From the NCBI GenBank assembly GCA_017550025.1, contig JAFYLU010000073.1:41378-105377 (forward strand): a DNA stretch of 64,000 nt. The letters run 5' to 3'. This stretch comes from Bacteroidales bacterium. GTDB taxonomy: Bacteria; Bacteroidota; Bacteroidia; Bacteroidales; UBA932. The notes under the pieces were generated by a model. It did no database searches. It saw only the letters and a program-made list of their open reading frames with translations, and was not told the DNA's origin. Shown one piece after another: positions 18,744 through 45,387 of this stretch (positions within the stretch are counted from its first letter, which is position 1; every line of letters starts with the position of its first letter). The position numbers and the translations under genes are program-made.

Positions 18744-22887
<4,144 letters not shown>

Positions 22888-22889
22888 GA

Positions 22890-24113: not shown

Positions 24114-24141
24114 ATCTTCTGTTATTGATTATTTTCTTTTT

Positions 24142-26218: not shown

Positions 26219-26266
26219 GACGAAAGGCTGAAAGATTTTGACGAACGGTAAGATTTCACTGACGAA
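26219..26266. promoter_or_regulatory. Candidate LytTR operator: three GACGAA direct repeats at 21-bp spacing
   Basis: GACGAA occurs at 26219, 26240 and 26261, exactly 21 bases (two helical turns) apart, upstream of the pullulanase-led operon. The same word and spacing recur at 43128-43175 beside the LytTR regulator gene. LytTR proteins are known to bind direct repeats with 21-22 bp periodicity. Binding is inferred. Confidence 0.6.
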
Positions 26267-27973: not shown

Positions 27974-27984
27974 CGCTGTTTATT

Positions 27985-30900
27985 TTAAAAGTTTATGTTC
28001 AGGCGTAGCGAAAATGTGCGTGGCCGCGGCCATGTCGAGCCGTCAATTCCGTTTTCCGATATGACTTCAGGGTCTCCTCCGCTGTAACCTGTGAGCACAA
28101 AGACATTCTGTACTCCTGCTCCGACACGGATATCGGTCTCCCACCGTCCTATGCCTCGGAAAGTATATCCGAGATTCACATCGTCAAGACGGAGGAAGGA
28201 AGCATTTTCAAGAAAATAGTCAGAATACCATTGCTGTTCACTGTTCGGGGCCGTAAATCCAGTGGTCTTCACGACAGGAGCCTGATTCGGAAGAGCTCCG
28301 GAATTGAGGTCAAGGCTTGCTGTGGAATTGGCGGATGCAAAGTCATTGAAGACCCAGGTTCCTGCAGCTCCATGTCCGTTCATGCCGAAGTCCCAGTTTC
28401 CGATGGTCATCTTCATGCTGAAGCCATAATAGAACTTCGGCGAAACGCTCTTTCCGGTCATGTACCGGTCATTGCCAGTGATGGTACCGTCACCGTCCCT
28501 GTCCACGAATTCGTTCTGCAGAGGCTTTCCGTCTGTGCCATATTTCTGCTGATATGTGTAGTAGGTGTAAGGTGCATATCCCACCATCTGACGGCACAGA
28601 TATCCTCCGGTTCCTTTAGACAAGGTTCCTGTCTCGATGTAATAGTTCCTGTCATCGGTAGGATTCAGCTTCGTGAACTTCGTTTCCTGGAATGTTCCGT
28701 TGAATCCAAGCTGAAGGCTCACGCCGGGTCTCTGTACCGGAATTCCGCTGACCGAGAACTCCACTCCCTTGTTACGGATGGATCCGATGTTGGTCATAAG
28801 CCTGTTTCCGAAACCGGATCCCATAGGGACCTGTACGGAATTCAGAAGGTCCTTTGTATCGCGTATGTATGCATCGATGCTTCCCGAGAGCCTGTCATTG
28901 AAAAAGCCGTAATCGATTCCGACATTGTATGTGAGAGTCGTTTCCCATCTTATGCCCGGATCATATGCCTGCGGAGTCAGAAGATTCACATAATTTCCTC
29001 CTCCCATATCATATGTCTTATACGGATCGTTCGACATTGAATACCTTGCAAGATGCACATAATTGCCTATTCCGTCCTGCTGGCCTGTCAGTCCTGCAGA
29101 CAGACGCAGCTTGAGGGCCGATACCTGCTTCACTCCCTTCATGAAAGGCTCCTGCGCAATATTCCATGCAAAGGCTCCGGAAGGGAAGAAGCCCCACCTG
29201 TATGCCTTCGCGAACTTGCTGGAACCGTCCCCGCGGGCTGTAAACGTGAAGACATATCGTGAATCGATGGAATAGTTGGCTCTGCCATAGAATGACACCA
29301 TATAGTTCTCGTTCCTGTACGTCAGGTAGCGCGAATCCACTGTCTCGCCCGGTTCAAGCTTGACCTCATCCGTTTCGTTGAAGTATGTTATGCTGCGGTT
29401 CGCCCAGTAGTTGTTCTGCCATGAATATCCCGCAAGGAGCTCGAGGTTATGCACGCCCCACTTCTCATTATAGGCCGCATATGCCTCGAAAACCTGGCTT
29501 CGGCTGAGGCTGACCCCCTTGGTATGCTGTCCGATACCAAGATTCTCCGTATCAGTATATGCCTGGAATGATCCCGGACGCACTCCGTTATAGGAATCCG
29601 TGGCGGTGATGTCAAGTCCCGCGCTAACATTGAAGCTCAAGGCTTCAAACCCATGCACCTTGTATCCGGCTGCAATACGGCCTATAAGGCGGGTCGACCT
29701 CGCATCGCTTATGTCATCATACAGCATCGAAAGCGGACTCGGGCCGACAAGGGTGTTGGGAGAGAATTCCCCTCCTCTGCCGTTTCCGTAATTCCAATAG
29801 CCGTTCGTAGTGGCATAATCGACCGAACCGTCCGGATTCCTCCAGTACGGATCAACTGTAGGGTTGTAAAAGGCCGCCTTCGACACTACGCCGCTGTCAG
29901 TATAATCCGAATATGAATATATTCCCTTCAGATTGAAATCCAAATTCAGGTGTCTGTCAAAGAAGTCCGGGGCAAGATTCACATCCATCGTACCTCTGTC
30001 ATATGATGCCCCCTTCAGAGTTCCCTGCTGCCCGATATACGAAGCCGAGCCTCGGTAAGGCATCCTGTCATTCAGATTTCCGTATACACTCACATTATGT
30101 TCCGTAGCGAATGCCGTTCTGAATATCAGGTCCTGCCAGTCGGTCCTGGCGTTTCCCGCAAGTTCCTTTATACGATTCCCGACAGGTGTTCCGACAGGGT
30201 AAGTTTCCGAATAGAAGGCCATCAGCTCGTCTGCAGACATGACCGTTATGTTCGAAGCGGTCCGTTGAACGCTGACAGAACCGTTATATGCCACCTGTGG
30301 GGCTCCCCCTTTACCCTTTTTCGTCGTGATGAGGATGACTCCGTTTGAGGCACGCGATCCGTAGATAGCTGCAGATGACGCATCCTTTAGTACAGAGAAA
30401 GACTCGATATCATTAGGATTCAGGAGATCAAGCGGATTTGACATGGCACCTCCGGCTCCCTGGGCCACCGGAACTCCGTCTATCACTATCAAAGGATCAT
30501 TCGACGCATTCAGCGAGGCAGAACCTCTGATTCTGATGCGGGAGCCTGATCCCGGTCCGCCGTCTCCCGGAGTCACGAGAAGGCCCGCAACCTTTCCTTT
30601 AAGCATGTCCTGCGTATTGACCACTGCTCCTCTGTTGATTTCTTCAGCCTTGATTGCCGAAACCGAACCGGTCACATCATCTTTCCTGACGGTTCCGTAA
30701 CCTATGACAACCACCTCACTCAGATGTTCGGCATCCTCCTTCAAGACAATGGTTCCAGGCAGGGCCGCCGCCTCGTAAACCTGGGTCACATATCCGATGC
30801 AGCTGATCTCAACCATATCCGAAGGTCCGGACACAGAAAGCGAAAACCCTCCGTCCGGGCCAGTTGAAGTACCGTTGGATGTGCCTTGCTCCACTACCGC

Positions 30901-31029
30901 AGCTCCGACCACCGGACCATAGCTGTCCGTCACAGTACCCGATATCCCATACCCTCCTTGAGCGGAGAGGGCTATGCCGCCTGCCAAAAGAAGCACCAGC
31001 GACACATATATTTTTCTAATCATGTCCAT
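27985..31029 (-). CDS. SusC/RagA family TonB-dependent transporter (pair 1)
   Basis: A 1014-residue outer-membrane barrel protein. After a signal peptide (LVLLLAGGIALSAQG) come the carboxypeptidase-regulatory-like domain, the plug (VVIGYGTVRKDDVTGSVSAI, DPLIVIDGVPV, IYGSRASNGVILITTKKGKGG) and a long barrel ending in FSLRLNINF. It forms an operon with SusD pair 1 and has its own promoter at 31052-31080. The plug is very close to that of the second SusC at 38685, so the two pairs are probably duplicates specialised for related glucans. Confidence 0.94.
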   Translation of the reverse strand: MDMIRKIYVSLVLLLAGGIALSAQGGYGISGTVTDSYGPVVGAAVVEQGTSNGTSTGPDGGFSLSVSGPSDMVEISCIGYVTQVYEAAALPGTIVLKEDAEHLSEVVVIGYGTVRKDDVTGSVSAIKAEEINRGAVVNTQDMLKGKVAGLLVTPGDGGPGSGSRIRIRGSASLNASNDPLIVIDGVPVAQGAGGAMSNPLDLLNPNDIESFSVLKDASSAAIYGSRASNGVILITTKKGKGGAPQVAYNGSVSVQRTASNITVMSADELMAFYSETYPVGTPVGNRIKELAGNARTDWQDLIFRTAFATEHNVSVYGNLNDRMPYRGSASYIGQQGTLKGASYDRGTMDVNLAPDFFDRHLNLDFNLKGIYSYSDYTDSGVVSKAAFYNPTVDPYWRNPDGSVDYATTNGYWNYGNGRGGEFSPNTLVGPSPLSMLYDDISDARSTRLIGRIAAGYKVHGFEALSFNVSAGLDITATDSYNGVRPGSFQAYTDTENLGIGQHTKGVSLSRSQVFEAYAAYNEKWGVHNLELLAGYSWQNNYWANRSITYFNETDEVKLEPGETVDSRYLTYRNENYMVSFYGRANYSIDSRYVFTFTARGDGSSKFAKAYRWGFFPSGAFAWNIAQEPFMKGVKQVSALKLRLSAGLTGQQDGIGNYVHLARYSMSNDPYKTYDMGGGNYVNLLTPQAYDPGIRWETTLTYNVGIDYGFFNDRLSGSIDAYIRDTKDLLNSVQVPMGSGFGNRLMTNIGSIRNKGVEFSVSGIPVQRPGVSLQLGFNGTFQETKFTKLNPTDDRNYYIETGTLSKGTGGYLCRQMVGYAPYTYYTYQQKYGTDGKPLQNEFVDRDGDGTITGNDRYMTGKSVSPKFYYGFSMKMTIGNWDFGMNGHGAAGTWVFNDFASANSTASLDLNSGALPNQAPVVKTTGFTAPNSEQQWYSDYFLENASFLRLDDVNLGYTFRGIGRWETDIRVGAGVQNVFVLTGYSGGDPEVISENGIDGSTWPRPRTFSLRLNINF

Positions 31030-31197: not shown

Positions 31198-33834
31198 CTA
31201 CAGATCCACCAGGAGCCTGAACTCACCCTGCTTGAGGGTTATGTTTCCTGAAACAGAGCCGCCGTTGATATAGTCAGTCCATGTGCCAGAAGGTACAGTA
31301 TAGCTGGTTGATGTCTTGCCGAAGTTTCCTACCACATGGAAAGCCTTTCCGTCCACCTTACATGTGATCTTCTTGAGTGTTCCGGTAGGAGTCCACTGGA
31401 AAGACGCATCACTGTCGAAGAAGCGAGGGTTCTCACTACGGAACTTCAGAAGCACGGCATATGTATCATAAAGGGCCTTGCGGGCAGGCACAGCCATGTA
31501 CTGGTCTGTCACGACAGGCTTTTCTCCTGTACGGCCGTTATGCTCGATTGTATAGTCATATCCGATTTCACCGAACTGCCATATCATCTTCGGACCCGGT
31601 ACTGTGAGGAAGAATGCTGCAGAAGCACCTGCACGGCGCATTGCCACAGTAAGCGCATCCTCATTTTCACCGGAAGATGCAGCAGGATCAGCAGGACGGC
31701 TGCCGGCATTCATGACCCATACGGTTTCTGTCTCGAGGCTGAAATAAATATCATATGTACCAGCAGCAGGAACATACATATCCTTGGATGAACTGCCGTT
31801 TGTCATTGCATATCCCTGACCTACGGTAAGCTTATAATTGTTTGTTGCCGCACCATAGTTGTACGCATCGTTCCACTCTCCAGCCTTACGGATCTTGAAA
31901 CGGTCATTTGCAGTAACTGTCACATTCTTCAAGGAGTAGAATACGCCATCCTTGCTCATCACCTTATCATTGTTCCAATTATCTCCGAGGCCTATCACTC
32001 CCCATGTAACCGAAGAGGCGTCAGCAGCTGTACCATAGCAGAGGCGCTCCTCGTCGTGGCTCTCCATATAACCTACGAAGCCGCCGAACGGAGAAGTAGA
32101 ATACATGTTGGTAAAGTTGCCCGTACCACCTGTCACAGCAGAGCGATATTCAGAATTCACATTTCTCCAAAGCTGCATTCCGTGCTCAGCAAGGACCTTC
32201 TCCTCATCCCAGTCAGAAAGATGCTCAAATATCACAACCGCATTATCATTTACTGACCAGATATGATCCGCATATCCCTTGAGGATGTTGACACGGCTCT
32301 GATCGTAATGTCCCCACTGTGCAACATTACCATTGTCTCCGCCAGAGTCTGTCTGGGTGAATCCCTTTGTAAGGTCAAACCTGAATCCGTCAACATCGTA
32401 CTCGGTAAGGAGGTACTCGAGACTGCGCTTTACATGCTCCTTCACCATAGGATTCTCATGATTCATGTCATGGAATACATTGTATGGATGCTTGGCGTAC
32501 TCGTTGAACCATGGATTGTTTGCAGCAGTCCTGTCACCGTTCCACCAGAGCTTAGCCCACGGATGGGATCCCGATGCATGGTTGTATACCACGTCGATGA
32601 TAACTGCCATACCACGTGCATGACACTCGTCGATGAATGCCTTATACTCTTCACGAGTTCCATAGAACTTATCGAGGGCGAACCAGTGATTAGGGTTATA
32701 ACCCCAGCTGAGATTGCCGTCAAACTCCTGAATCGGCATGAGCTGTACCGCATTTACACCGAGGTTCGCGATATAATCAAGCTGGGTCATCGCACCTGCT
32801 ATGTTCTGTGTCGTTGTGAAGTCACGGAAAAGCATCTCATAGATAACAAGATCATTCTTATCTTCAATCCTGAAGCTCTTGTGCTGCCAAGCGTATGCCG
32901 GTCTGTTGATCTGGAACGCAGAAACGAGTTGCTTAGCACCTGACGGGAATGCCGGGACACCAGGAATATACTGGTCGTTCCACTGATCATAAACCACCTC
33001 TGTATATGGATCGCTGAGGTAGATGTCGCTTGAACCGTCACCGATGCGATACTGGAAACGGTACTCCTTGTCTGCATCGAAACCGTCAAGAGTGATCCAC
33101 CAGCTGGTCTTGTCATCATCCCAGCGCATCGCTCCATCAGAGTTGCGTTTCCACTCGTTCCAATCACCCACGATATAGCAGTAATCATGTCTGTTTCCTG
33201 CTGTGTCGTTGTCATAAACCACAAAAGTCACCGAACCGTCCGCATTATAATTGATGCCGTCCTTGGCGCCTTCCGGAAGAGGTTCCTCAACGATAGGATC
33301 CGGCACGAACACCTCTGTCTGGTATTTCTCGTCTATCACAGAGTTGAACTGGTCCTTATCGTGGCTCTTTGTATTTCCATCGGCTGACCTGACGATGATC
33401 GCCAGCTTCTCCACCGGAGTTGTGTCGCTGCCAAAGAACTCGCGTATAGTAGGGGTCAGTTCAAGTTCCCATGAATTATCTGACACCTTCTTGAAATGAC
33501 ATTTCTCTATATTCTGATCCCAATTTGCAGGCACAAACATCCATTCACCATCAACAACAATTCCAAGATGGGCATACAATTCACCCTTATGATTATAGAG
33601 TTTATTGGAAGATGAAGGAGTGAAGAGTATCTTGCAAGGCTCATCAGCATTTGGCAGAACAGGATCCAGGGTTATGCCTGAAGACAGGTCAGGCTTGACG
33701 GCAGGCTGTTCTGGTTCCGGTTTTTCCGGCACTTCAGGTGTAGGGGTTGTTGAGCCTTCAACAAACGGTGGTTCACAGGCGGCCAACATGAAGGCCATCA
33801 CCACTGGAAAAATAATTGAAAATATACGTTTCAT
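31198..33834 (-). CDS. Multi-domain GH13 surface alpha-amylase with a beta-sandwich inserted in the catalytic barrel (SusG-like role)
   Basis: Lipoprotein with lipobox MLAAC; the second Met (33834) gives the best signal peptide, though 33843 is possible. Numbering from 33843: a proline-rich spacer (30-50), a beta-domain (55-180), a CBM48-like domain (195-310, YIVGDWNEWKRN), then GH13 from 330 with DVVYNHA, GFRFDLTKGF (Asp490), VIFEHLSDWDE (Glu540) and MESHDEERL (Asp597). Residues about 613-715 (GVIGLGDNWN ... YDIYFSLETETVWVMNAG) resemble the SusE/SusF starch-binding modules and sit between barrel strands seven and eight; catalytic sequence resumes with FFLTVPGPKMIWQFGE. It is the last gene of the transport operon and probably cleaves starch at the surface. 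Confidence 0.92.
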   Translation of the reverse strand: MKRIFSIIFPVVMAFMLAACEPPFVEGSTTPTPEVPEKPEPEQPAVKPDLSSGITLDPVLPNADEPCKILFTPSSSNKLYNHKGELYAHLGIVVDGEWMFVPANWDQNIEKCHFKKVSDNSWELELTPTIREFFGSDTTPVEKLAIIVRSADGNTKSHDKDQFNSVIDEKYQTEVFVPDPIVEEPLPEGAKDGINYNADGSVTFVVYDNDTAGNRHDYCYIVGDWNEWKRNSDGAMRWDDDKTSWWITLDGFDADKEYRFQYRIGDGSSDIYLSDPYTEVVYDQWNDQYIPGVPAFPSGAKQLVSAFQINRPAYAWQHKSFRIEDKNDLVIYEMLFRDFTTTQNIAGAMTQLDYIANLGVNAVQLMPIQEFDGNLSWGYNPNHWFALDKFYGTREEYKAFIDECHARGMAVIIDVVYNHASGSHPWAKLWWNGDRTAANNPWFNEYAKHPYNVFHDMNHENPMVKEHVKRSLEYLLTEYDVDGFRFDLTKGFTQTDSGGDNGNVAQWGHYDQSRVNILKGYADHIWSVNDNAVVIFEHLSDWDEEKVLAEHGMQLWRNVNSEYRSAVTGGTGNFTNMYSTSPFGGFVGYMESHDEERLCYGTAADASSVTWGVIGLGDNWNNDKVMSKDGVFYSLKNVTVTANDRFKIRKAGEWNDAYNYGAATNNYKLTVGQGYAMTNGSSSKDMYVPAAGTYDIYFSLETETVWVMNAGSRPADPAASSGENEDALTVAMRRAGASAAFFLTVPGPKMIWQFGEIGYDYTIEHNGRTGEKPVVTDQYMAVPARKALYDTYAVLLKFRSENPRFFDSDASFQWTPTGTLKKITCKVDGKAFHVVGNFGKTSTSYTVPSGTWTDYINGGSVSGNITLKQGEFRLLVDL

Positions 33835-33853
33835 TGTTCGCATGGAATTGGCA

Positions 33854-33887: not shown

Positions 33888-35900
33888 TTATTTAGCTACA
33901 CATGTGTATGTAGGTACACTGCCGTGAGCCATGTCAAGAGTGACAACATACGTACCTGCAGTCTCAATCTTGATATTAGAACCATCATGAGCAAGAGCGT
34001 CAGCAGATCCTCCGAGGTTGTATCCCCAGTCACCGTTGAAACGGAACTTCCACTCATCACCTGCAGCAAATGTCTGTTCTACAGTATATGTGAGTGTTTC
34101 CGAATTGAAGGTCATCTCAACATCAGATCCCCAGCCTGATCCTGCGAATGAACCGATGATGCCGACCTTTGTGAGAGGAGTAGCGACAGCGGTCATATTG
34201 ATGATATCCACATTCCAGAAATATGTACCGTTTGCGATGTTGCAGTTCTCTCCACCGCCCTCATTAAGGCTATAAGTGAAACCGTCCACAGATGTCTGAC
34301 CGATCCATACAGATCCGTTCTTCACGAACTTGAAGCCATATGGAGCGTCATACATTGTGATATAACCGCGATAAAGACCCTTTGAGCTATCATAAAGATT
34401 TACTCTCATATCGTCTGTACCGTTCCAGCCATGACCGGAATAGTCACCCGCAACCACGAGATAATCAGGCATGTTAACGTCAACAGCGTTGATTGACAAG
34501 TCTGAAGTCGCAGCGTTAAGAATCACCATGTAGGTTGCATCGTTCTTTGCGAATGTGATGTTGCCACCGCCGAACTCAAGAGCATCCATGTCTGTACCGA
34601 ATGAGTATGTCCAGTCAGAGTTGAAACGAACCTTGAATTCAGTACCCTTTGAAATAGCGATTTCCTCATCTGCAGTCCAAGACTTGGTATCGGCATTGTA
34701 AGTCATCTTGAGACCCTTGCCCCAACCTGCATAATCGCCGGTGAATCCACCTATGAGCTCGAGATACTCAAGCTGAATCATATCAAGGGTGTTGAACTTC
34801 TTATTTAGCTTCACATAATAGAAGCCTGAAGGAACCTTGATATTGTCAGAAGCTGGGGTCTTGGCTGTTGCGGCAGCATAGTTACCACCATAAGTTGTAA
34901 CTGTAACATCACTGAAGCCGAAGTCTCCGCCATTATCCCATGAATCTGTAGGACAGAACTTGAATTCGACATCCGCGCCGTCTGCTGTAGTAAGATCCAC
35001 GAAGCCCTGGTAGAGGCCCTTGACCTTGCTTGAAACCTTGAGGACAGCAGCTGTAGCAGGAGACCAGCTCTGGTATGAACCAGGCATATAGTACTGCTCA
35101 GAGAATGTAGCGACATAAGTTGTAATCTTTACAGTCACAGCATTTGAAGGCACTCCATCCGGAATTGTAGGGCAGCATGCATACACATAGAAGTTAACCT
35201 CTACCTCAGCATCCTCAGCACCACCGGCAGCGATGACTGCTTCGTTAAGCGCGTCCACTGTTGTAGAATATGCCATGTCATAGCCACCTTCTGAAAGCAC
35301 ATTCTCCTCGCCTGCACCGACCTTCAAAGTAACCTTGTAAGTCACATCCTCGCCATAGACGAGTCTTGGTTCAGTCCAGTTAAGAAGATCAAGGTTACCT
35401 GATGGGTTATCCTTGTCGAGTACCACCTCTGCAATCTCAGCGGAAAGTACTGAAGGGACTGCATCATCATATACATAAACCTTGAATGAAAGAGGATCAG
35501 ATGCGTACACCTCACCTGCTGCATCAGTGATTTCAACGCGTGCTGACACCGCATGAGTCGAGTTCTGCTCAAGCTCGAAGTTCTCCTTCATGAAAGTTCT
35601 GAAGTCAGTCTTCGAGAGAGTAAAATAAGTATTTACAACATCATTTGCAAGAAGAGCATCTGTCTCACCTACAGTGATGTACAGATCATACACATAAGCC
35701 TCTGCGTCGATGAAGCGTGCCTTCTCCCAAGCGAAGGTCACATCCTCGCCTACAGTAGCTGTAGTGATAAGAATGTCATTGTGTGCTGACATTACCGGTG
35801 CTACCGGTGCAGTTGAGAAGGTGTCCTCTGGTACGATGGTACAAGAAGCCACGGCAAATACAGCTGCAACAGAAGCAAATATGTTTCTAATTAATTTCAT
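33888..35900 (-). CDS. SusF-like surface starch-binding lipoprotein with four binding modules
   Basis: A 670-residue lipoprotein with lipobox VASC (Cys20). Two immunoglobulin-like N-terminal regions (25-270; FAWEKARFID and LLNWTEPRLVYG) are followed by four repeats of the SusE/F carbohydrate-binding fold starting at about 278 (YYMPGSYQSWSP), 385 (LELIGGFTGDYAGWG), 485 (YLVVAGDYSGHGWNG) and 585 (VGIIGSFAGSGWGSD). Each carries the aromatic residues that grip alpha-glucan helices. Bacteroides SusF has three such modules. The gene sits 13 bases after susE within the transport operon. Confidence 0.88.
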   Translation of the reverse strand: MKLIRNIFASVAAVFAVASCTIVPEDTFSTAPVAPVMSAHNDILITTATVGEDVTFAWEKARFIDAEAYVYDLYITVGETDALLANDVVNTYFTLSKTDFRTFMKENFELEQNSTHAVSARVEITDAAGEVYASDPLSFKVYVYDDAVPSVLSAEIAEVVLDKDNPSGNLDLLNWTEPRLVYGEDVTYKVTLKVGAGEENVLSEGGYDMAYSTTVDALNEAVIAAGGAEDAEVEVNFYVYACCPTIPDGVPSNAVTVKITTYVATFSEQYYMPGSYQSWSPATAAVLKVSSKVKGLYQGFVDLTTADGADVEFKFCPTDSWDNGGDFGFSDVTVTTYGGNYAAATAKTPASDNIKVPSGFYYVKLNKKFNTLDMIQLEYLELIGGFTGDYAGWGKGLKMTYNADTKSWTADEEIAISKGTEFKVRFNSDWTYSFGTDMDALEFGGGNITFAKNDATYMVILNAATSDLSINAVDVNMPDYLVVAGDYSGHGWNGTDDMRVNLYDSSKGLYRGYITMYDAPYGFKFVKNGSVWIGQTSVDGFTYSLNEGGGENCNIANGTYFWNVDIINMTAVATPLTKVGIIGSFAGSGWGSDVEMTFNSETLTYTVEQTFAAGDEWKFRFNGDWGYNLGGSADALAHDGSNIKIETAGTYVVTLDMAHGSVPTYTCVAK

Positions 35901-35913
35901 AGTCCGTCACTTT

Positions 35914-36987
35914 TTACTGTTTCACGTACTCGATAACAAGTGGAGTTCTGTTAGTGTGGAGTCTTACGACATAGTCACCTGCTGCAGGTGACGGGATATC
36001 GCTGCCGCCCTGAACGAGCTCGAAGCCACCCTCAATATCTGAAGAAGCTACAGGGCTGCCATACTTGTGGTCCCAGCTATTGTTAAGACGTACAAGCCAT
36101 CCGCTTGAACCGTCGAATGAAATTACCGGAGACTCCCATACGTTATCAGTTGCATTGTATGTGAATGAAGGCTCATCATCAGCCCATCCGTTGAAGCCAC
36201 CGATAAGGCCGACCTTGGTAACTGTCTCCTTGTACACTTCCTTTTTCTTTGTGTCGATAGTAAGCCATATGATAGGTTCATCTGCTGTTACAGAGAAGTT
36301 TCCGTCACCGTTCTCAGGATCAGCAACTGTCCAGCCTACAGGTTTGTAGCCATCGTTCATACCTACCCAGTTCTTACCTTCGTCAACCACCTTGAAGTAG
36401 TATGGAGTCTCATCAGGATTAGATACGTCAACGAGGAACTTGTACTGGCTTGTACCAGCAGCATACTCCCAGATCATAGTACCCAACTGATTCCAACCCT
36501 GATACTTACCAGGGAGCCAGATATTCTTCTTGGCTGGAAGGTATGTGAATACAGAGAATGAGATGTTGTTTGAAACAAGCTTCGCAGTTCCGACTGTTCC
36601 GCTGATGACAGCCTCGACATAAGCATCGATGCTCACATTCTCATTTTTTACTCCTCCGAGGTCGTTTACGACCACACCTACGAGATCACCCTTAGCGATC
36701 GAAAGGTTGTTTGAATATGACTGACCGATGAGGGCTGTTGCCTCACCCTTCTTTGCATATACAGAGTACTGGACCTGTGTGCTTGCGCCGAAGTCTGCAG
36801 CACTCCAGGTAAAGGTCACCTGCTCTACGTTCGATGTATTTGCATCTGACACGATATCGGCAACTTCAGAAAGAACAGGAGACACAAAGTCATCCGCTTC
36901 TGCAATTCTAGGCCTCTCGATGTCCAATGTGCACGAAGCCATCAGAGCAGAAACAGCCAATACCGCAAGATATCTTAATGTTTTCAT
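35914..36987 (-). CDS. susE: SusE-like surface starch-binding lipoprotein
   Basis: A 357-residue lipoprotein with lipobox LMASC (Cys19) and the SusE-type N-terminal Ig-like domain (30-150; VTFTWSAADFGAS). Two starch-binding modules follow: 152-250 (IWLPGKYQGWNQ) and 258-355 (VGLIGGFNGWADDEP). The domain order matches SusE of characterised starch systems. It follows SusD by 15 bases and precedes SusF by 13, so its dose is tied to the transporter. Confidence 0.9.
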   Translation of the reverse strand: MKTLRYLAVLAVSALMASCTLDIERPRIAEADDFVSPVLSEVADIVSDANTSNVEQVTFTWSAADFGASTQVQYSVYAKKGEATALIGQSYSNNLSIAKGDLVGVVVNDLGGVKNENVSIDAYVEAVISGTVGTAKLVSNNISFSVFTYLPAKKNIWLPGKYQGWNQLGTMIWEYAAGTSQYKFLVDVSNPDETPYYFKVVDEGKNWVGMNDGYKPVGWTVADPENGDGNFSVTADEPIIWLTIDTKKKEVYKETVTKVGLIGGFNGWADDEPSFTYNATDNVWESPVISFDGSSGWLVRLNNSWDHKYGSPVASSDIEGGFELVQGGSDIPSPAAGDYVVRLHTNRTPLVIEYVKQ

Positions 36988-37002
36988 ATTATTGTCTTTT
37001 TA

Positions 37003-38667
37003 TTAGTAACCGATATTCTGAGTCAAGTTGCTGTTAGCACTGAGGTCGCTCTGTACAATCGGATAGATTGTGCGGAACTCCGGAATAGAAACCTTACCGT
37101 TGAGGATACCGCCCTTGTATGTCCAAGGGTAGTTCATTGAGGTGAAATAGCCGTAACGGATAAGGTCTACACGACGGTGACCCTCCCACATGAATTCTCT
37201 TGCTCTCTCATCGAGGAGCCAGTCAAGTGTGAGGTCAGACGGCATACCTACGCCAGCACGGTCACGGAGAGCCTTGACATATGAAACAGCCTTTGTATCC
37301 TTGACGCTGCCGCCATTGATACGAGCGTCTGCCTCTGCATAGTTGAGGTACATCTCAGCAAGACGGAAGATAGGCATGTCTGCAGAAGAGAGCTTATTGT
37401 CTCCACCGCCACTTACACCTTGTGCGAAAGTATTGTCTGCGTTAAGACCGCAATATTTCCAGCAGAGCCAGCCTGTAGTCATGGCAGAGAGGTCAAATGT
37501 CTCCTTGCAACCAAGATTAGTGAAGAATGCACGCTTGTCGCTTCTTTCTCTGTCATAACCGAAAGTGTTGTCTGGATTTCCCCACTCTACTCCTGAAAGC
37601 TGGAAACGCTCGACATAATCAGCAGGAACATGATAACCGGCCCAGTTCTCGAAGTTGACCTTCTCAAGACCGAAGTGCTGACCGATAGCTACGTTAGCAT
37701 CCTCATTGAGAGAAGCAGACACGAAAGTTGTTGTACCACCCCAGCTCTGAACAGAAACTCTGTCATAAGCAATTGCAAATATAAACTCGTTTGCAGAACC
37801 GTTTGTCGTGTTATCCTGACGGAAAAGATCTGCATATGTTCCCTGAAGCTTATAGCCCATGTCGATTACCTTCTGAGAAGCATCCTTGGCATCCTGCCAT
37901 CTTGCAGTTCCTGTATAAACCTCTGCATTGAGGTACATACGGCTGAGAAGCGCCCATACTGATCCCTTTGTCGGACGTGGATATCCTACCTCACCCTTCT
38001 TTGGCATAGCGCTTTCGTCAGAAGCAAGGTCAAGAAGCTCGGTCTCAAGCCAAGAGAAGAGATCTGCACGCTTAATCTGTGCTGGGTTAGCTCCACCAAT
38101 GTTCTGAGGTGTAGGGAAAGGAGGATTTCCGAACTCGTCCATAAGCACATAGAAGAACATAGCTCTGTGGAAACGCGCCTCTGCTCTGTAACCACGAACA
38201 GTCTCGATAAGATGACTCTGACCACGGGCCTCAAGCTTCGCGTCCTCAGTCTGGAGGAGATACTCGTTAACGAGTGCGATAGCCTTCACGGCACGTGTGT
38301 AAACCGCTGTCATAGCATCGTTCACACCGTCACCCCAAGAGTCTGTCTGAAGGGCAGAAATATATGAGTCACCCCATACGCACTTCAATGCGTCGCAAGG
38401 CATCTCGTTGAGGTTGAACCACTGTCTGAGGAATTCAGACTGTCCTGAATCTGAGAAGCCGAGGTCGTTAGAACCCGGATCATCCTGGCCTACCATCATA
38501 TAATATCCGTTGATATACGCAAGGGAGTGAAGATAGCTGGCCTCATTCTCGTATGCGTTCTCTGAAGTAAAGTCAGTCTTGTTGAGAGGAACGGTATTGA
38601 GGTCCTGCAAGCAAGAGCAGAGCACAAGAGCGAGAGAGAGAATAAGTATTTTGTTGAAAATTTTCAT
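37003..38667 (-). CDS. susD: SusD/RagB family starch-binding lipoprotein (pair 2)
   Basis: A 554-residue lipoprotein with lipobox LCSC (Cys19), N-terminal LQDLNTVPLNKTDFTSENAY, the helical repeat RGYRAEARFHRAMFFYVLMDEFGNPPF and the C-terminal LDERAREFMWEGHRRVDLIRYGYFT ending in NLTQNIGY. Directly between susC and susE in a starch operon, so a starch-binding cap for SusC is the likely role. Similar to SusD pair 1 along its length, especially at both ends. Confidence 0.95.
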   Translation of the reverse strand: MKIFNKILILSLALVLCSCLQDLNTVPLNKTDFTSENAYENEASYLHSLAYINGYYMMVGQDDPGSNDLGFSDSGQSEFLRQWFNLNEMPCDALKCVWGDSYISALQTDSWGDGVNDAMTAVYTRAVKAIALVNEYLLQTEDAKLEARGQSHLIETVRGYRAEARFHRAMFFYVLMDEFGNPPFPTPQNIGGANPAQIKRADLFSWLETELLDLASDESAMPKKGEVGYPRPTKGSVWALLSRMYLNAEVYTGTARWQDAKDASQKVIDMGYKLQGTYADLFRQDNTTNGSANEFIFAIAYDRVSVQSWGGTTTFVSASLNEDANVAIGQHFGLEKVNFENWAGYHVPADYVERFQLSGVEWGNPDNTFGYDRERSDKRAFFTNLGCKETFDLSAMTTGWLCWKYCGLNADNTFAQGVSGGGDNKLSSADMPIFRLAEMYLNYAEADARINGGSVKDTKAVSYVKALRDRAGVGMPSDLTLDWLLDERAREFMWEGHRRVDLIRYGYFTSMNYPWTYKGGILNGKVSIPEFRTIYPIVQSDLSANSNLTQNIGY

Positions 38668-38684
38668 TTTATATTTCCTCCTTC

Positions 38685-41675
38685 TTAGAATGTGATGTTA
38701 AGACGAAGAGTAAAGAGACGTGGACGTGGGTAAACTGTTGTATCCACACCGCTCACATTACCGATTTCAGGGTCAAGACCTGAATACTTGGTGAAAGTGC
38801 ATACATTCTGTACAGAACCTGCAAGACGCATCTTGAGATTGTTCTTAAGATCGAATGTGTATCCGAGGTTGATGTCATCGATCTTGAAGAATGTAGCATC
38901 CTCGATCCAGAGGTCAGAATACTTCTGATCCTCAGAGTTAGACGCATGCCATCCCTCAATAAGCCAAGTGTTACTGAGGTTGTTGATATAACCTTTGGTA
39001 TAGTCATCACTGTAAGATGATGAGTATCCCATCGCATTCTTGTTCACGAGTTCTGCACCGATCGCACCGTGTCCGTTGATACCAAAATCCCAGTTCTTGT
39101 ATCTTACCTGAGTGTTGATACCATAGTATGCCCAAGGTGTAGGGCTGCAACCTGTAAGATAACGGTCCTCTGTATTTACAAGGCCATCACCGTTACGGTC
39201 TACAAGAGCATTCTGGATAGGCTTTCCAGCCTCATCATAAAGCTGCTGGTAGAAGTAGTATGTATATGGAGCGTAACCTGCGCGGTGGAGTGAAGAGAAA
39301 CCAACGTTCGAACCCATTGACGTACCTGTCTCGACACCAAGATAAGTCTCGTCATCGTTAGTAAGCTTGGTGATCTTCACATCCTGGAATGTGATGTTAC
39401 CACCGATTTCCCAATGCCAGTCCTGAGTCTCTACAGGGATGAAGTTCGCTGAAAGCTCGATACCCTTGTTGAGCATGTTACCGATGTTCGAGATAACTTC
39501 CTTACCGAAGTTCGAACCGAGTGGAATAGAGATGTTGTTGAGGAGATCATATGTGTTGCGGTAGTAAGCCTCAACTGTACCAGTGATGCGGTCATCGAAG
39601 AAGCCGAAATCTACACCGATGTTGTAGGTCTCTGTAGTCTCCCACTTGATGTTAGGATTGTATGCGAGTGGCGAAAGGGCATTGTATCCATAGCCATCAC
39701 CCATCGGGTACTGCATGGTATTGGACTCAGACTGATAGTATCTTGCGATATAAGGGTAGTAATCGTCTCCGATATCCTGCTGGCCTGTACGTCCCCAACC
39801 GAGACGGAACTTCATCTGAGATACCTTGTCGTTATCCTTGAGGAAGTCCTCGTTTGCGATGTTCCAAGCGAAGGCTGCTGATGGGAAGAAGCCCCAACGG
39901 TTCTTTGGAGAGAAACGGCTGGATGCGTCAGCACGGGCTGTGAATGTGAAGAGATACTTCGACGCGTAGCTATAGTTGAGACGGCCGAAGAATGACACGA
40001 GATAGTACTCCTTGGCATTGGTAGGAGCCTGGTAGTAAAGTTCAGTACGATTGTTATTGTAGAACTGCTTTGAGTCGTATCTCACATAGTTGTGCTGCCA
40101 TGAGTAACCAGCCATCGCATTGAAATTGTGCTTCTGTGCAAATGTCTCGTTATAATCAAGATATGCCTCGAGAAGGGTATTCTTGTTATAGTTCATGTAG
40201 GTGTTGTAATAATCCTTTGAACCTGAACGGAGAGATCCGATGGTACCTATACCGTTATAGTTGGTACCCTCTGTTTTCGCCATATCCATACCGAGGTTCA
40301 CATTTGCTCTCAAAGACTCAAGACCATGGAACTTATAGTCGAGCTGGATGTTTCCGATTCCACGGAAAGTATGAGCGAAATCAACCCAGTCATAAGTTGA
40401 CGAAAGAGGATTGACGCTTGCCATTGTATTGGCAGAACCTGCTGTAAGCCAGTTCCAATATCCGTTTGAAACTACTGAATTATCAACATTACCATCAGCA
40501 TCTGTGAAATATACAGGCTTTGTAGGGTCGAATGCAAGTGCTGAACCTACAGGGTTTGAACCCCAGTTTGTGTGCTGGTATACACCCTTTGCATTTACAT
40601 TCACAGAGAGGTGATTGTCAAAGAATTTAGGTGAGAGGCTCACGTCAATGTTAGATCTCTGGTTGTCACCCACCTTGAACTGTGCCTGGTCGAGATTGTA
40701 TCCGAGGCTGACACGGAAAGGAATGATTCCACCTGAATAGAGACTCATGTTGTGGTCAGTGTTGAGTGCTACGCGGTAAATCTCCTTCTGCCAGTCAGTG
40801 TCATAGATCACGCCGTCAACTCCAAGAAGACCCGCAGAATCAGGACGATACTGCTGAATGTACTCTGCGAACTGAGTACCGCTCATCATGTCGATCTCAC
40901 CTGACTTGAATTTGGCCGAAGCACTTCCGCTGTATCCGAAGTGAAGGCCTTTGCCCTTACCCTTCTTGGTTGTGATGATGATGACACCGTTAGATGCACG
41001 TGAACCGTAGATTGCAGTTGCAGAAGCATCCTTGAGCACTGAATATGACTCGATATCGTTAGGGTTTACTGTCGCGAGAGGGTCACCCATACCTGCACCG
41101 GCCTCTTTGGTGACAGGAACGCCGTCGATCACGATAAGAGGGTCATTGGACGCTGTCAGGGAAGCTGCGCCACGGATACGGATTGTGGCACCCGCACCTG
41201 GCTGTCCTGAGGCAGGGGTGATATTAAGACCCGATACCTTACCCACGAGCATCGATGAAGGAGAAGTGACTGCACCTCGGTTGACATCCTCTGCCTGGAT
41301 AGCAGCTACCGAACCTGTCATGTCTTCCTTCTTTACAGAACCGTAACCGATGACTACTACCTCATCAAGGAATGTGGTATCCTCAGAGAGAGTCACGATC
41401 TTTGGAAGCTGTGAAGCCACGAAAGTCTGTGTTGCATAACCGATGCAGCTGATCTCTACAACGGCATTTGCGCTAGAAACAGAAAGGACATAGTCGCCGT
41501 CGAGACCGGTCGAGGCACCGTTAGCAGTGCCCTGCTCGATCACGGTTGCACCGATGATCGGACCGATTGCATCAACAACTACACCCTTCACCTCGTATCC
41601 GCCCTGGGCGAATACAGATGCGCCCATAATGCATGAAAGCAAGAATGATGCGCATAGTGTCATGATTCTATTCAT
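38685..41675 (-). CDS. susC: SusC family TonB-dependent transporter for alpha-glucan oligosaccharides (pair 2)
   Basis: A 996-residue receptor: signal peptide (SFLLSCIMGASVFAQG), carboxypeptidase-regulatory-like domain, plug with VVIGYGSVKKEDMTGSVAAI, DPLIVIDGVPV and YGSRASNGVIIITTKKGKG, then the barrel ending PRPRLFTLRLNITF. With SusD it would import malto-oligosaccharides using TonB energy. Follows the MFS permease by 59 bases in the same orientation; no separate promoter is obvious in that gap, so both likely derive from the control region at 43043-43238. Confidence 0.95.
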   Translation of the reverse strand: MNRIMTLCASFLLSCIMGASVFAQGGYEVKGVVVDAIGPIIGATVIEQGTANGASTGLDGDYVLSVSSANAVVEISCIGYATQTFVASQLPKIVTLSEDTTFLDEVVVIGYGSVKKEDMTGSVAAIQAEDVNRGAVTSPSSMLVGKVSGLNITPASGQPGAGATIRIRGAASLTASNDPLIVIDGVPVTKEAGAGMGDPLATVNPNDIESYSVLKDASATAIYGSRASNGVIIITTKKGKGKGLHFGYSGSASAKFKSGEIDMMSGTQFAEYIQQYRPDSAGLLGVDGVIYDTDWQKEIYRVALNTDHNMSLYSGGIIPFRVSLGYNLDQAQFKVGDNQRSNIDVSLSPKFFDNHLSVNVNAKGVYQHTNWGSNPVGSALAFDPTKPVYFTDADGNVDNSVVSNGYWNWLTAGSANTMASVNPLSSTYDWVDFAHTFRGIGNIQLDYKFHGLESLRANVNLGMDMAKTEGTNYNGIGTIGSLRSGSKDYYNTYMNYNKNTLLEAYLDYNETFAQKHNFNAMAGYSWQHNYVRYDSKQFYNNNRTELYYQAPTNAKEYYLVSFFGRLNYSYASKYLFTFTARADASSRFSPKNRWGFFPSAAFAWNIANEDFLKDNDKVSQMKFRLGWGRTGQQDIGDDYYPYIARYYQSESNTMQYPMGDGYGYNALSPLAYNPNIKWETTETYNIGVDFGFFDDRITGTVEAYYRNTYDLLNNISIPLGSNFGKEVISNIGNMLNKGIELSANFIPVETQDWHWEIGGNITFQDVKITKLTNDDETYLGVETGTSMGSNVGFSSLHRAGYAPYTYYFYQQLYDEAGKPIQNALVDRNGDGLVNTEDRYLTGCSPTPWAYYGINTQVRYKNWDFGINGHGAIGAELVNKNAMGYSSSYSDDYTKGYINNLSNTWLIEGWHASNSEDQKYSDLWIEDATFFKIDDINLGYTFDLKNNLKMRLAGSVQNVCTFTKYSGLDPEIGNVSGVDTTVYPRPRLFTLRLNITF

Positions 41676-41734: not shown

Positions 41735-43042
41735 TTATGCCTTCTTGCCATCCTTCACGAAACGTACGGCAACAGCTCCGAGAACGAGAAGGACTGCCGC
41801 AACAAGGAACATGCTTACCTGCGCACCTCCTACAAGCTTGAGGACAAGGCCGCCACATGCAGCTGCAGCGATCTGCGGAAGGCATATAGTACCGTTGAAG
41901 AGGCCGAGATATGTTCCGATATGGCTGCCTGAAAGCGAATTGGTAAGAAGGGTGAAAGGAATTGCGAGCATCGCAGCCCATGCAGCTCCGATAAGGAGGA
42001 ATGAGCCGACAAGCAGATACTGGTCATGGATGAAGAACACCGAAGCGAAGCCTGCAGCTCCGACAAGGAGGCTCACGGCATATGCCACCCTGATGTTCCT
42101 GAACTTCGGGATAAGCAACGCCCAGAGCATAGCTCCTACAGCCTGCACGGCAAAGAGTACTCCGACCCAGTTTCCGGCAGTCTGATAGCCCTCTGAAGCC
42201 ACATCTGTAGTATCCCATACGGTTTCTGCAATCGCACCGTTAGTATAAGTCCACATATAGAGAAAGGCCGCCCAGCAGAAGAACTGCACCAGACCCACGG
42301 TCCAGAATGTCTGTGGGGCATTCTTCAGGAGGGTGAACATTCCCGGAGCCTTCTCCTCCTTCTTGTCCGGATCTATGCCATGGAACTCGGCATATTCCTT
42401 CGGAGGCATCTCCTTCACCTTGAAAGTAGTGAAGAGGACGCAGAGGATGAGGATGGCCGCACCGATGTAGAATGCATATTTCACTGTATCTGGAACCTGT
42501 CCTTCCGGAGCGACATTGGCGATTCCGATCCATGCGAAGAGTATCGGGAAGATGTAGCCCATGAGGCTTCCTGCATTGCAGAGGAAGCTCTGGATAGAAT
42601 AGGCCTGTGCCTTCTGATTCTCACCGACCATATCACCCACAAGCATCTTGAACGGCTGCATGGCAACATTGATCGAAGTGTCGAGGAACATGAGGGAGAT
42701 CAGTCCGAAGATCATGGCTCCGCTGACTGCAAGACCGAAGTTTCCGGCATTAGGAAGCATGCACATCACAAGGATGGCGATTATCGATCCAAGGAAAAGA
42801 TACGGGATACGCCTTCCCAGACGTGTCCATGTCTTGTCGCTGTATTTTCCTACGAGGGGCTGGACAAGAAGGCCCATGAGAGGAGGGAGAATCCAGAAGA
42901 AGCTGAGGCTGTGAGGGTCAGCTCCCAAAGTCGCAAAGATGCGGCTGATATTGGCACTCTGAAGGGAATACGCTATCTGGACACCGAAGAATCCGAAGCT
43001 GATGTTCCACATCTGCCAGAAAGTAAGTTTCGTTTTCTGCAT
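41735..43042 (-). CDS. MFS permease, maltose/oligosaccharide type (glycoside-pentoside-hexuronide/SLC45-like)
   Basis: A 435-residue protein with twelve predicted membrane segments. MWNISFGFFGVQIAYSLQSANISRIFATLGA and PLVGKYSDKTWTRLGRRIPYLF are hallmarks of the SLC45-like sucrose/maltose permease group common at the head of Bacteroidota starch loci. It would carry maltose or maltodextrin across the inner membrane. It is the first gene of the transport operon, next to the repeat array and divergent from the sensor kinase. Confidence 0.9.
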   Translation of the reverse strand: MQKTKLTFWQMWNISFGFFGVQIAYSLQSANISRIFATLGADPHSLSFFWILPPLMGLLVQPLVGKYSDKTWTRLGRRIPYLFLGSIIAILVMCMLPNAGNFGLAVSGAMIFGLISLMFLDTSINVAMQPFKMLVGDMVGENQKAQAYSIQSFLCNAGSLMGYIFPILFAWIGIANVAPEGQVPDTVKYAFYIGAAILILCVLFTTFKVKEMPPKEYAEFHGIDPDKKEEKAPGMFTLLKNAPQTFWTVGLVQFFCWAAFLYMWTYTNGAIAETVWDTTDVASEGYQTAGNWVGVLFAVQAVGAMLWALLIPKFRNIRVAYAVSLLVGAAGFASVFFIHDQYLLVGSFLLIGAAWAAMLAIPFTLLTNSLSGSHIGTYLGLFNGTICLPQIAAAACGGLVLKLVGGAQVSMFLVAAVLLVLGAVAVRFVKDGKKA

Positions 43043-43076: not shown

Positions 43077-43113
43077 TTAAAAGTCTGCTAAAATAATCAT
43101 TATATATAATAAG

Positions 43114-43175
43114 GACGAATGTCCGTTGACGAATTGCCGGAAGTTTCAGACGAACTGCGCGATTTTCATGACGAA
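43114..43175. promoter_or_regulatory. Candidate LytTR operator: four GACGAA direct repeats between sensor kinase and Sus operon
   Basis: GACGAA occurs at 43114, 43128, 43149 and 43170. The last three are exactly 21 bases apart. All are in the same orientation as the three copies at 26219-26266. They occupy the 196-base divergent gap shared by the two-component system and the transport operon, so they could serve both activation of the operon and autoregulation. Confidence 0.62.
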
Positions 43176-43188
43176 CAAATGACAAAAA

Positions 43189-43219
43189 TTGCAGAATAAG
43201 CCTAAAATATCTATATTCG
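43189..43219 (+). promoter_or_regulatory. Possible promoter of the sensor kinase gene
   Basis: TTG at 43189-43191, a 20-base spacer and TATATTCG at 43212-43219 (one mismatch) lie 20 bases before the ATG at 43239. Confidence 0.4.
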
Positions 43220-43238: not shown

Positions 43239-44621
43239 ATGGCATCAATACGTAATATCAAGGTATCCTGGGTCATCCACATATTCGCCTTTCTGCACGC
43301 TGCAACAGCTTTCGGATGCAGGCATGCCGGATTTGAAGACGAACTTCTCCTGACCATCCTCACAATGACGATGGCACTTATAATCTGTCTGAAGAAGACT
43401 CTCAGGATAGAGTTCACTGCGGCTGTCATAATCATCGTCAACATAATCGGCTATTTCATGGGTAACCTGGGAGCTGAATTCTTTCTGAAACTGGTTCCCT
43501 CACAAATTGCCGCCCATGCACTGTCAACCTTCCTGACAACGGAGATTTTAGGATGGGGCATAGTCGCTATCACAAAGATCTTCCAGTCATGGAAAACAAC
43601 ACGTGAAACCACGACGGACTCGCCTTATATGTCATGGCTCATATTGGCCATGGGAGGTGTATTCATCCTGCGTCTGGGCATAATATTCCTGTTTTCCACA
43701 GATCCCTTTTCCAGCGGAAGCGCCATCGAAATATCCGGCAAGATATTCTCGAATTCATTCTCACTCATAATCCTTATATGCCTCAACATTCTGTATGTCA
43801 GATATACGGCATCCTTCAGAAAGAAATCATATTATATCAGGACGCTGGTACTCATCGGTTTCATAATTGCGGCTTCCCTGGTGGAAACCGTCATGGCCGG
43901 ACTGATGCTTACATTGGGAAACAGGAGCAATTTCATTGAAGAGTTTCCCGTACTTTTCTCCTGCTCACTTCTTGCTGAAGTCACTGTATACTGCATTGTC
44001 TTCATGGTAAACTATGCCGTAACAGCCCGGAACGAAATGCATGAAGAACGTGAAAAGGCAAATACCGCCCAGTACCGTTACATAAAGCTCAAGCATCAGG
44101 TAAATCCCCACTTCCTGTTCAATTCCCTGAACATCCTGGACTGCCTCATCTGCGAGGAACAGACAGACAGGGCCAGCAGCTACACACACAAGCTTGCGGG
44201 AGTCTACAGATACATGCTTAAAAGCGAGGAGGAAATGATCGTATCCCTGCATGACGAGCTGGTATTCACTGATCTGTATGTGGACCTTCTTAAGGAACGA
44301 TTCCCTAAAGGATTCGTTGTAGAGACTGATGTTCCGGAAAGCTTCATGGCAAGATATGTGCTCCCGTGTTCAATACAGCTGCTGCTGGAGAATGCGATAA
44401 AACACAACACGGTAGACGAGGGCAATCCTCTGAAAATCAGCATCTACATTCAGGACGACAGCATAATAGTGCGGAACAATGTAGTGCCGAAGCTGACCAA
44501 GGTACCGTCTACAGGACTCGGTCAGAAATACATCAGGCAGATGTATCTCGACCTGACGGGAAAACAGATAGGAATAGAAAGTACTGACCAGATTTATAAA
44601 GTAACCTTACCACTGATATAA
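43239..44621 (+). CDS. LytS/YehU-type membrane sensor histidine kinase
   Basis: A 460-residue kinase from the ATG at 43239; an in-frame TTG at 43224 is less likely. Six to seven membrane segments fill residues 10-262 with no large periplasmic domain. The HisKA-like region has HQVNPHFLFNSLN with phospho-acceptor His291, and the ATPase part has the N-box LLLENAIKHN (381-390) and STGLGQKYI. This is the LytS-family architecture. The signal is probably sensed within the membrane. The cognate LytTR regulator follows after 4 bases, and the Sus transport operon is divergent, suggesting starch or maltodextrin control. Confidence 0.9.
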   Translation: MASIRNIKVSWVIHIFAFLHAATAFGCRHAGFEDELLLTILTMTMALIICLKKTLRIEFTAAVIIIVNIIGYFMGNLGAEFFLKLVPSQIAAHALSTFLTTEILGWGIVAITKIFQSWKTTRETTTDSPYMSWLILAMGGVFILRLGIIFLFSTDPFSSGSAIEISGKIFSNSFSLIILICLNILYVRYTASFRKKSYYIRTLVLIGFIIAASLVETVMAGLMLTLGNRSNFIEEFPVLFSCSLLAEVTVYCIVFMVNYAVTARNEMHEEREKANTAQYRYIKLKHQVNPHFLFNSLNILDCLICEEQTDRASSYTHKLAGVYRYMLKSEEEMIVSLHDELVFTDLYVDLLKERFPKGFVVETDVPESFMARYVLPCSIQLLLENAIKHNTVDEGNPLKISIYIQDDSIIVRNNVVPKLTKVPSTGLGQKYIRQMYLDLTGKQIGIESTDQIYKVTLPLI

Positions 44622-44625
44622 CGAT

Positions 44626-45387
44626 ATGAATGTCTTTATTGTTGAAGATGAGCTGATGGCTCAGAAGAGCCTCATGCGCGTACTTGCGCAGAATTTCACT
44701 GACATGGACATAGCCGGCTGCGCCACATCAGTAAAGGGAGCCGTGGAATGGCTCAACACACCCGGCAACAGTGCCGACATAATATTCATGGATGTGGAAC
44801 TGGCTGACGGAAAATGCTTCGAGATATTCCGCCAGACCGAAATCAAGGCCAAAGTCATAATGACTACGGCATATGACAGCTATGCACTTAAGGCTTTCGA
44901 AGCAGGCAGCATCGACTATCTGCTCAAGCCTATCGACCCGGCAGCATTGAAAAGAGCGGTGGCACGATGCAGGATGAGCGGAGGCACTATCGACGTGCAG
45001 GCCCTGCTCAAGGCAATGGACATGACGGGAGGAACACGCAGAAAGGAATACAAGGAAAGATATATCATCCGTTTCAACGACCGTATCGTACCTCTGGCAA
45101 CTGCAGACATAGCCTATATCTATTCCGAGGAGAAGAACAACTATCTGGTGACATTCGACGACCAGCGATACATAATAGACTCTTCACTCGACGTGATATC
45201 TGAAGAACTCGACCCAGTATCGTTCTTCCGTATCTCACGCAGCTGCATAGTGGCCATAAAAGCCATCAAAAGCATAGTGAAGCAGGCAGGAGGAAGGCTT
45301 CGCATAATGGCAGATCCGGAGTCATCATTTGAAATGACAGTAAGCCGTTCCCGTGTGGATGACTTCATGACATGGCTGGAGAAATAG
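44626..45387 (+). CDS. LytTR-family response regulator
   Basis: A 253-residue regulator. The receiver domain (1-120) has acidic Glu7-Asp8, phospho-acceptor Asp56 (IIFMDVEL), Thr81 and LLKPID with Lys101. Residues about 145-250 are a LytTR DNA-binding domain (ERYIIRFNDRIVPLATADIAYIYSEEKNNY and FFRISRSCIVAIKAI). LytTR domains bind pairs of direct repeats about 21 bp apart, which matches the GACGAA arrays upstream of both starch operons. It takes the place normally held by SusR in starch loci; regulation of starch use is inferred from location and repeats. Confidence 0.92.
   Translation: MNVFIVEDELMAQKSLMRVLAQNFTDMDIAGCATSVKGAVEWLNTPGNSADIIFMDVELADGKCFEIFRQTEIKAKVIMTTAYDSYALKAFEAGSIDYLLKPIDPAALKRAVARCRMSGGTIDVQALLKAMDMTGGTRRKEYKERYIIRFNDRIVPLATADIAYIYSEEKNNYLVTFDDQRYIIDSSLDVISEELDPVSFFRISRSCIVAIKAIKSIVKQAGGRLRIMADPESSFEMTVSRSRVDDFMTWLEK

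Follow-up and report, generated by a model that had tools for sequence, protein, structure and literature searches.

A SusCD starch locus is headed by a gene pair encoding a membrane histidine kinase and a LytTR response regulator, and the array of 21-bp-spaced TTCGTC boxes beside it is, judging from the sequence, very probably the operator of this pair. Our explanation as a whole, activation included, is that the LytTR two-component system activates the Sus genes and, through a second array lying 17 kb from the first and directly upstream of the pullulanase gene pulA, the pulA genes as well; we hold it to be probable. The kind of regulator and the kind of operator are already known, while what is new is that they head a SusCD starch locus and that the pair appears to have collapsed repeatedly into one protein. 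In the open-access literature searched, outside which most subscription papers lie, we found no SusCD starch locus described as being under LytTR control, and among the matches listed from the open-access literature there was no case of a pair collapsing into a LytTR protein. For polysaccharide loci of Bacteroides, PMC3878776 (here and below, PMC numbers stand for excerpts of the papers concerned) names SusR-like, HTCS and ECF-sigma systems as regulator classes; a LytTR pair heading a starch locus would add a class to these, in largely uncultured gut bacteria. For an arabinoxylan locus of Roseburia, a LytTR regulator is listed in the excerpted part of PMC5320581.

The features of the window, that is, of the whole stretch of 64,000 nucleotides analysed, are collected in Table 1. 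Hydropathy gives the kinase hydrophobic segments. PF06580 is its sole Pfam match, the LytS 5TMR sensor domain was not found in it, and its sensor half matches no family; the 5TMR domain is absent from some LytS/LytTR members. In a search of solved structures, the three alignments shown all cover the receiver domain and so give no information on DNA contacts.

Table 1. Genes, candidate operators and proposed promoter elements of the starch locus (window coordinates)
Feature	Position	Strand	Basis or remark
Proposed operon 2: pullulanase, two GH13, GH97	18744..26156	-	Pfam and TIGR02104
GH97 of proposed operon 2	18744-20951	-	
GH13 genes of proposed operon 2	22890-24113 and 20959-22917	-	
Type I pullulanase pulA	24201-26156	-	TIGR02104 above cut-off
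Proposed -7 element TATTTTCG, pulA promoter	26180..26187	-	31 nt past box 3
Array 2 upstream of pulA, TTCGTC in triplicate every 21 bp	26219..26266	-	Candidate operator
Second SusC/SusD pair	26342..31029	-	Pfam
Alpha-amylase family (GH13) protein	31198..33843	-	PF00128
SusC (38685-41675), SusD-like protein (37003-38667, by position), two SusE-domain proteins	33888..41675	-	
MFS sugar transporter, gene 1 of proposed operon 1	41735..43042	-	PF07690, PF13347
Proposed -7 element TATTTTAG, MFS-Sus promoter	43088..43095	-	32 nt past box 3
Fourth GACGAA copy, 14 bp off	43114..43119	-	Seen in one gap of 32, that of the window
Array 1 upstream of MFS, TTCGTC in triplicate every 21 bp	43128..43175	-	Candidate operator, kept in 31/31 gene-anchored gaps
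Proposed -7 element TATATTCG, kinase-regulator promoter	43212..43219	+	36 nt off box 1
Membrane histidine kinase	43239..44621	+	PF06580 (72.6 bits), hydropathy; ORF listed from TTG 43224
Response regulator, receiver and LytTR DNA-binding domain	44626..45387	+	PF00072 and PF04397 above cut-off

From the MFS start codon (ATG 43042, minus strand) to that of the kinase (ATG 43239, plus strand) the gap measures 196 bases. The original prediction placed four copies of GACGAA in it, three of them at exact 21-base steps, and these were re-found on the plus strand at 43114, 43128, 43149 and 43170, the last three at exact 21-bp steps. Read on the minus strand, which is that of the Sus genes, array 1 is TTCGTC-N15-TTCGTC-N15-TTCGTC, with the general form TTCRTC-N15-TTCRTC-N15-TTCRTC (in plus coordinates, box 3 is 43128-43133, box 2 is 43149-43154 and box 1 is 43170-43175). 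Single GACGAA is not enriched in the window (32 found versus 33.3 expected). For the spaced pair GACGAA-N15-GACGAA, at up to two mismatches, there are 17 matches in the window versus 5.5 expected, and none of 100 shuffles reaches 17. The exact pair occurs five times in the window's own assembly (2.62 Mb, 83.5% complete): two overlapping copies at 43128-43175, two overlapping copies at 26219-26266 and one on another contig, inside a 194-aa frame (L001) which we take to be a Vsr-like endonuclease. When R is allowed at the fourth base, the pairs rise to 12 and the triples are still just two, array 1 and array 2. The genome scan proposed as a check in the original prediction thus led to two promoters of the same starch locus, that of MFS-Sus and that of pulA, and the second triple, before pulA, is absent from that prediction.

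The other proposed check, conservation in relatives, revealed a far stronger signal than a single gap can give. Among the matches listed from 300 same-genus genomes, 34 regulator homologues share at least 65% identity, and we scored the 31 gaps (window plus 30 relatives) for which MFS and kinase both lie on the stretch, with ends set by the genes and not by the pattern; G207, G080 and G264 were left out because the contig stops before MFS. All 31 gaps keep the array, 27 of them exactly (TTCRTC), two with one 22-bp step and two with one mismatch in the middle box. The Bacteroidota -7 consensus is TAnnTTTG, and a -7 element TAnnTTnG starts 31–33 nt past box 3 in 29 of the 31, and in 25 of the 31 a -7 element for the kinase gene is found at 36 nt from box 1. 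As for the four-copy repeat, three copies are conserved, but the one at 43114 is found in 1 of 32 gaps and is rejected as part of the operator. A wider set of 80 named loci, whose genomes are partly shared with the 31-gap set, comes from metagenome assemblies of Bacteroidales, and many of the titles name a ruminant; seven lack an MFS hit and 73 were scored. Where regulator identity is at least 65%, all 37 loci have at most one mismatch and 34 have the -7 element. The 36 more distant loci comprise 12, 8, 8, 7 and 1 with zero, one, two, three and four mismatches, respectively, i.e. at most two in 28 and three or four in 8, and the -7 element is present in 24 of them. Shuffling of the named loci gave no array in 365 at two mismatches or fewer and one at three. 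In L166, L175, L178 and L182, which are homologous pairs without an adjacent MFS hit, the array was not found in the stretch fetched.

Ahead of pulA the array is likewise kept in many relatives. The gene was found in 30 of 33 relatives with a close regulator, and 29 relative loci and the window were scored: of these 30 upstream regions, 19 have at most two mismatches, three have three, two have four and six have six or more, and the -7 element stands at 31–33 nt in 22. In L295, L299 and L300 the bases ahead of pulA look like the end of the preceding gene, so that pulA would there sit within operon 1.

The repeat itself has the form of a LytTR site. In an alignment of 62 distinct triples from both kinds of target, where the boxes themselves were set by the pattern used to collect them, box 2 and box 3 each have a C three bases ahead of them in 62/62, and this C is not kept ahead of box 1 in the same alignment. 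Boxes 2 and 3 therefore both read CMRTTCRTC, making 9-bp direct repeats with a 12-bp spacer, and the -7 element starts 31–33 nt past box 3 in 59 of the 62. LytTR sites are described in the excerpt of PMC4847170 as two repeats of 9–11 bp with spacers of 11–13 bp, a rule within which the window repeats fall, and the YpdB repeat given there, GGCATTTCAT, matches RCMRTTCRT at 8 of 9 positions. LRS repeats mostly lie ∼10 bp upstream of -35, according to the excerpted part of PMC6193735, and its Table 3 puts the B. thetaiotaomicron LRS repeat 11 bp upstream of TGTA-19 bp-TATCTTTG, so that the distance from repeat to TATCTTTG sums to 34 nt versus 31–33 here. Three repeats, as in the window, are reported for RcoM and CoxC in the passages of PMC11347149 concerned.

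Arrays and LytTR genes occur together well beyond the window. Across the 300 same-genus genomes (own included) the triple has 93 copies in 77 genomes, compared with 12 for a reversed control pattern. At least 47 of the 93 sit 1.15–1.77 kb upstream of a regulator homologue, just before the kinase (119 regulator places among the matches listed), and among the matches listed all 47 are on the opposite strand; again among those matches, an exact triple is present there for 28 of the 34 close regulators and for 19 of the 85 that are more distant. A further 14 triples belong to the starch locus: five before pulA (window, L191, L193, L194, L195), six beside a fused regulator (L200–L204, L207) and three beside MFS (L197, L205, L206). 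The remaining 32 are unassigned; we looked at 14 of them, of which nine lie in frames >120 aa and five are intergenic, and none has the usual -7 spacing. One of the intergenic triples (L190, G026:C52, 3001-3048) lies 60 bases past the stop codon of a relative of the window's GH13 gene and points away from it, without the usual -7 spacing; two others (L196 and L198, G080:C52 and G100:C1) stand ∼160 and ∼350 bases before genes for 243-aa and 373-aa proteins, also without that spacing. Near-identical triples (TTCGTCAACGCAGCGGGGGGCTTCGTCATCCGCAGGGGATG.TTCGTC) were seen in G204, G312, G208 and G149, and the L097 copy is inside a 228-aa frame.

The pair motif CMRTTCRTC-N12-CMRTTCRTC extends the association to other families. 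It was found at 31 places in 27 genomes among 393 genomes of the order (own included), the reversed control at two. Ten of the 30 other places, picked by eye as non-tandem and probably intergenic, were fetched as wider stretches, and in four of them (L240, L241, L247, L249) genes for a kinase and a full-length LytTR regulator follow the motif on its own strand, while nothing there matches the starch proteins of the window; since the places were selected by eye, four of ten is not a rate. L243 has a weaker LytTR-like hit and the other five are without one. Domains were checked with Pfam for one of the four, L240. The four operons, from other Bacteroidales families, start with a gene for a secreted protein of ∼210 aa, for which no Pfam match was obtained (two scanned), and in L240 a TonB-type receptor stands ahead of it.

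Which protein reads the array is not decided by periodicity alone, because predicted HTCS sites average 21 bp as well (mean distance between tandem sites, excerpt of PMC3878776). The 21-bp step, taken as a sign of LytTR in the original prediction, is thus not unique to that family, although the form of the repeat does fit LytTR sites. Another regulator, either an HTCS, a SusR-like protein or a LytTR protein encoded elsewhere, could read the array and leave the adjacent pair a bystander or a co-regulated neighbour, and the fixed distance between array and kinase promoter is as expected of a co-regulated gene. The own genome encodes four LytTR proteins, three besides the regulator of the window, so another of them could in principle bind. 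We nevertheless regard a different reader as unlikely. Pfam, run on the longer window ORFs with a few exceptions, found no transcription factor besides the LytTR regulator, and neither AraC-type (HTCS) nor SusR domain types were seen among the ORFs scanned; predicted SusR sites, moreover, are 67 or 77 bp apart between centres in the excerpted part of PMC3878776. At least 47 of the 93 triples adjoin a LytTR pair, the same repeats stand ahead of unrelated LytTR operons, and the LytTR domain is what survives in the collapsed regulators described below. A LytTR reader is therefore favoured on three counts: it is the sole transcription factor found by Pfam among the window ORFs scanned, array and LytTR gene co-occur, and the LytTR domain is retained where kinase and receiver are lost. 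The proposal that starch uptake here would be run by a LytTR two-component system is in this way supported by the arrays, their conservation and the LytTR co-occurrence.

Array 1 points at the MFS-Sus operon. MFS-Sus and pulA are the likely targets, given the fixed distance to the MFS and pulA -7 elements and the arrangement of one relative, L184, in which kinase and regulator are followed by MFS without a change of strand and a box pair between regulator and MFS is aimed at MFS. Autoregulation of the kinase-regulator pair is possible, in view of the fixed distance from array to the kinase's own -7 element. It could be argued that the regulator binds the array but represses, or chiefly controls its own promoter: the kinase -7 element is 36 nt from box 1 in 25/31 gaps, and a known LytTR protein with three repeats, CoxC, acts as a repressor (excerpt of PMC11347149). 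However, CoxC repeats overlap the -35 box, whereas here box 3 ends 31–33 nt before the -7 element, a spacing that resembles autoactivating LRS promoters as far as the passages of PMC6193735 describe them; array 2 stands before pulA, 17 kb off, and in L184 the repeats stay with MFS. Repression or chiefly autogenous control hence seems improbable to us, and the idea that the array belongs to the kinase gene alone is rejected, the repeats going with MFS in L184 and preceding pulA with no pair nearby. That the repeats arose by chance, for which one could cite that single GACGAA is no commoner than expected, can be dismissed as vanishingly improbable on the pair counts of the own assembly, the conserved, fixed spacing in 31/31 gaps and the 0/365 shuffles at two mismatches or fewer.

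The evidence is comparative: what the sequences show are the arrays, their spacing and conservation, the co-occurrence and the domain content. In the scheme we infer from these, a signal of alpha-glucan availability would be sensed by the membrane kinase, which would phosphorylate the regulator. LytTR domains would then bind side by side, two helical turns apart, on the 9-bp repeats of boxes 2 and 3, box 1 being a putative further LytTR site, and LytTR bound ∼32 bp upstream of the -7 element would recruit RNA polymerase, thus activating rather than repressing. With operon extents as proposed, the regulator would switch on two gene sets, MFS-SusCDE-amylase from array 1 and pulA-GH13-GH97 from array 2. 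Several observations count against the scheme: HTCS regulators too are predicted to use direct repeats at 21 bp, 8 of 36 distant loci have three or four mismatches, L166, L175, L178 and L182 show no array in the stretch fetched, six of 30 pulA genes are without one, 32 of 93 triples are unassigned and the own genome encodes further LytTR proteins.

In some relatives the pair appears to have been reduced, on more than one occasion, to one membrane protein next to this array. Nine genomes of the genus have a frame that unites the membrane half of the kinase with the LytTR domain of the regulator, beside array and MFS (L254 runs off the contig end). LytTR is the sole Pfam match (three of nine scanned), and by hydropathy several hydrophobic segments precede it in 9/9, none being present in the window regulator. 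Such proteins fit the layout of transmembrane transcription regulators, with membrane segments and a DNA-binding domain in one chain and no kinase or receiver. The fused proteins of L207 and L255 keep a stretch resembling the kinase dimer region and have lost NPHFLFN. In the fused loci the -7 element stands 31–32 nt past box 3 in 9/9, and box 3 is TTCGTA in three. No fused-regulator genome is among the 159 genomes matched by the two-gene regulator at E 1e-60, several of the assemblies being incomplete.

A tree of sensor plus LytTR (72 rows: 8 fused, 64 pairs) places the fused forms in two groups, one of them sister to the two-gene pair L256. They are united in 0/200 bootstrap trees, and the one-clade test gives p 0.0003, a test that was not blind since an earlier tree had already shown the two groups; that tree, of the LytTR domain only, was poorly resolved, contained badly cut outgroup rows and is superseded by the present one. 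L254 was left out, as were pairs in which the kinase frame fell below 430 aa or the regulator below 230 aa, and L256 (kinase 395 aa) was put in by hand. We infer the direction, from two-gene pair to single protein, from the nesting under a midpoint root and the kinase remnant. On balance we lean towards the view that within one genus the pair was replaced at least twice by a membrane protein joining kinase sensor and LytTR, with array, promoter spacing and transporter target kept. If true, phosphotransfer would be dispensable and the sensor could act on the LytTR domains directly. Nine collapsed regulators with the same array and target also open the transition from two components to one to a direct swap comparison of the two designs.

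The system shares features with several known ones. Like YpdA/YpdB and BtsS/BtsR of E. coli and AgrC/AgrA of S. aureus, it combines a PF06580 kinase with a receiver-LytTR regulator, and as in LytS/LytTR systems its direct repeats have a 12-bp spacer and lie upstream of a promoter, the repeat being close to that of YpdB (excerpt of PMC4847170). Unlike those systems, it has a SusCD starch locus and pulA as putative targets, a third box, a Bacteroidota-type promoter and a sensor half without a Pfam family. With the LRS and LRS-like operons of Bacteroides it shares LytTR repeats just upstream of the promoter, and LRS-like members have membrane segments ahead of the DNA-binding domain (both from passages of PMC6193735). 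However, LRS consists of LytTR and a membrane inhibitor without a kinase, whereas the window has kinase and receiver, and the collapsed relatives here appear to derive from a kinase/regulator pair. CoxC, in the excerpt of PMC11347149, resembles the collapsed relatives as a membrane sensor with LytTR, and CoxC and RcoM have three direct repeats 12–13 bp apart as here; yet CoxC carries an MHYT domain and represses, while the collapsed regulators match LytTR only (three of nine scanned). As with SusR and HTCS, the regulator is found at a starch or polysaccharide locus with direct-repeat operators, but SusR sites are 67 or 77 bp apart (both from the excerpted PMC3878776), and HTCS are single chains that run from a periplasmic sensor through kinase and receiver to an AraC-type domain, in contrast to two proteins and a LytTR domain here. 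Rsp of Neisseria also joins the membrane receptor of a kinase to the DNA-binding domain of the partner regulator, and a two-component origin of transmembrane transcription regulators is raised as a possibility in the passages of PMC10269533 concerned. Unlike Rsp, the collapsed proteins described here form two groups at a single conserved array, and one group (L207/L255) has a remnant of the kinase dimer region.

Two further observations concern the sensor and the pulA promoter. An alignment of 48 kinases and fused proteins shows H20, D34, T39 and T42 of the membrane half of the kinase (window 43239-43560) to be invariant and H14 to be almost invariant, which makes these residues candidates for a ligand or metal pocket. 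Between pulA box 3 and the -7 element (window 26199-26218) there is an AT-rich inverted repeat, TTATATAT-aaaa-ATATATAA, which is a candidate for a second operator. Of 21 upstream regions compared, 17 have perfect arms, either 8 or longer or the full 7 found, and in some species the outer bases vary on both arms (CAATATAT..ATATATTG, CGATATAT..ATATATCG). MFS promoters often carry TTATATATAAT at the position of this inverted repeat.
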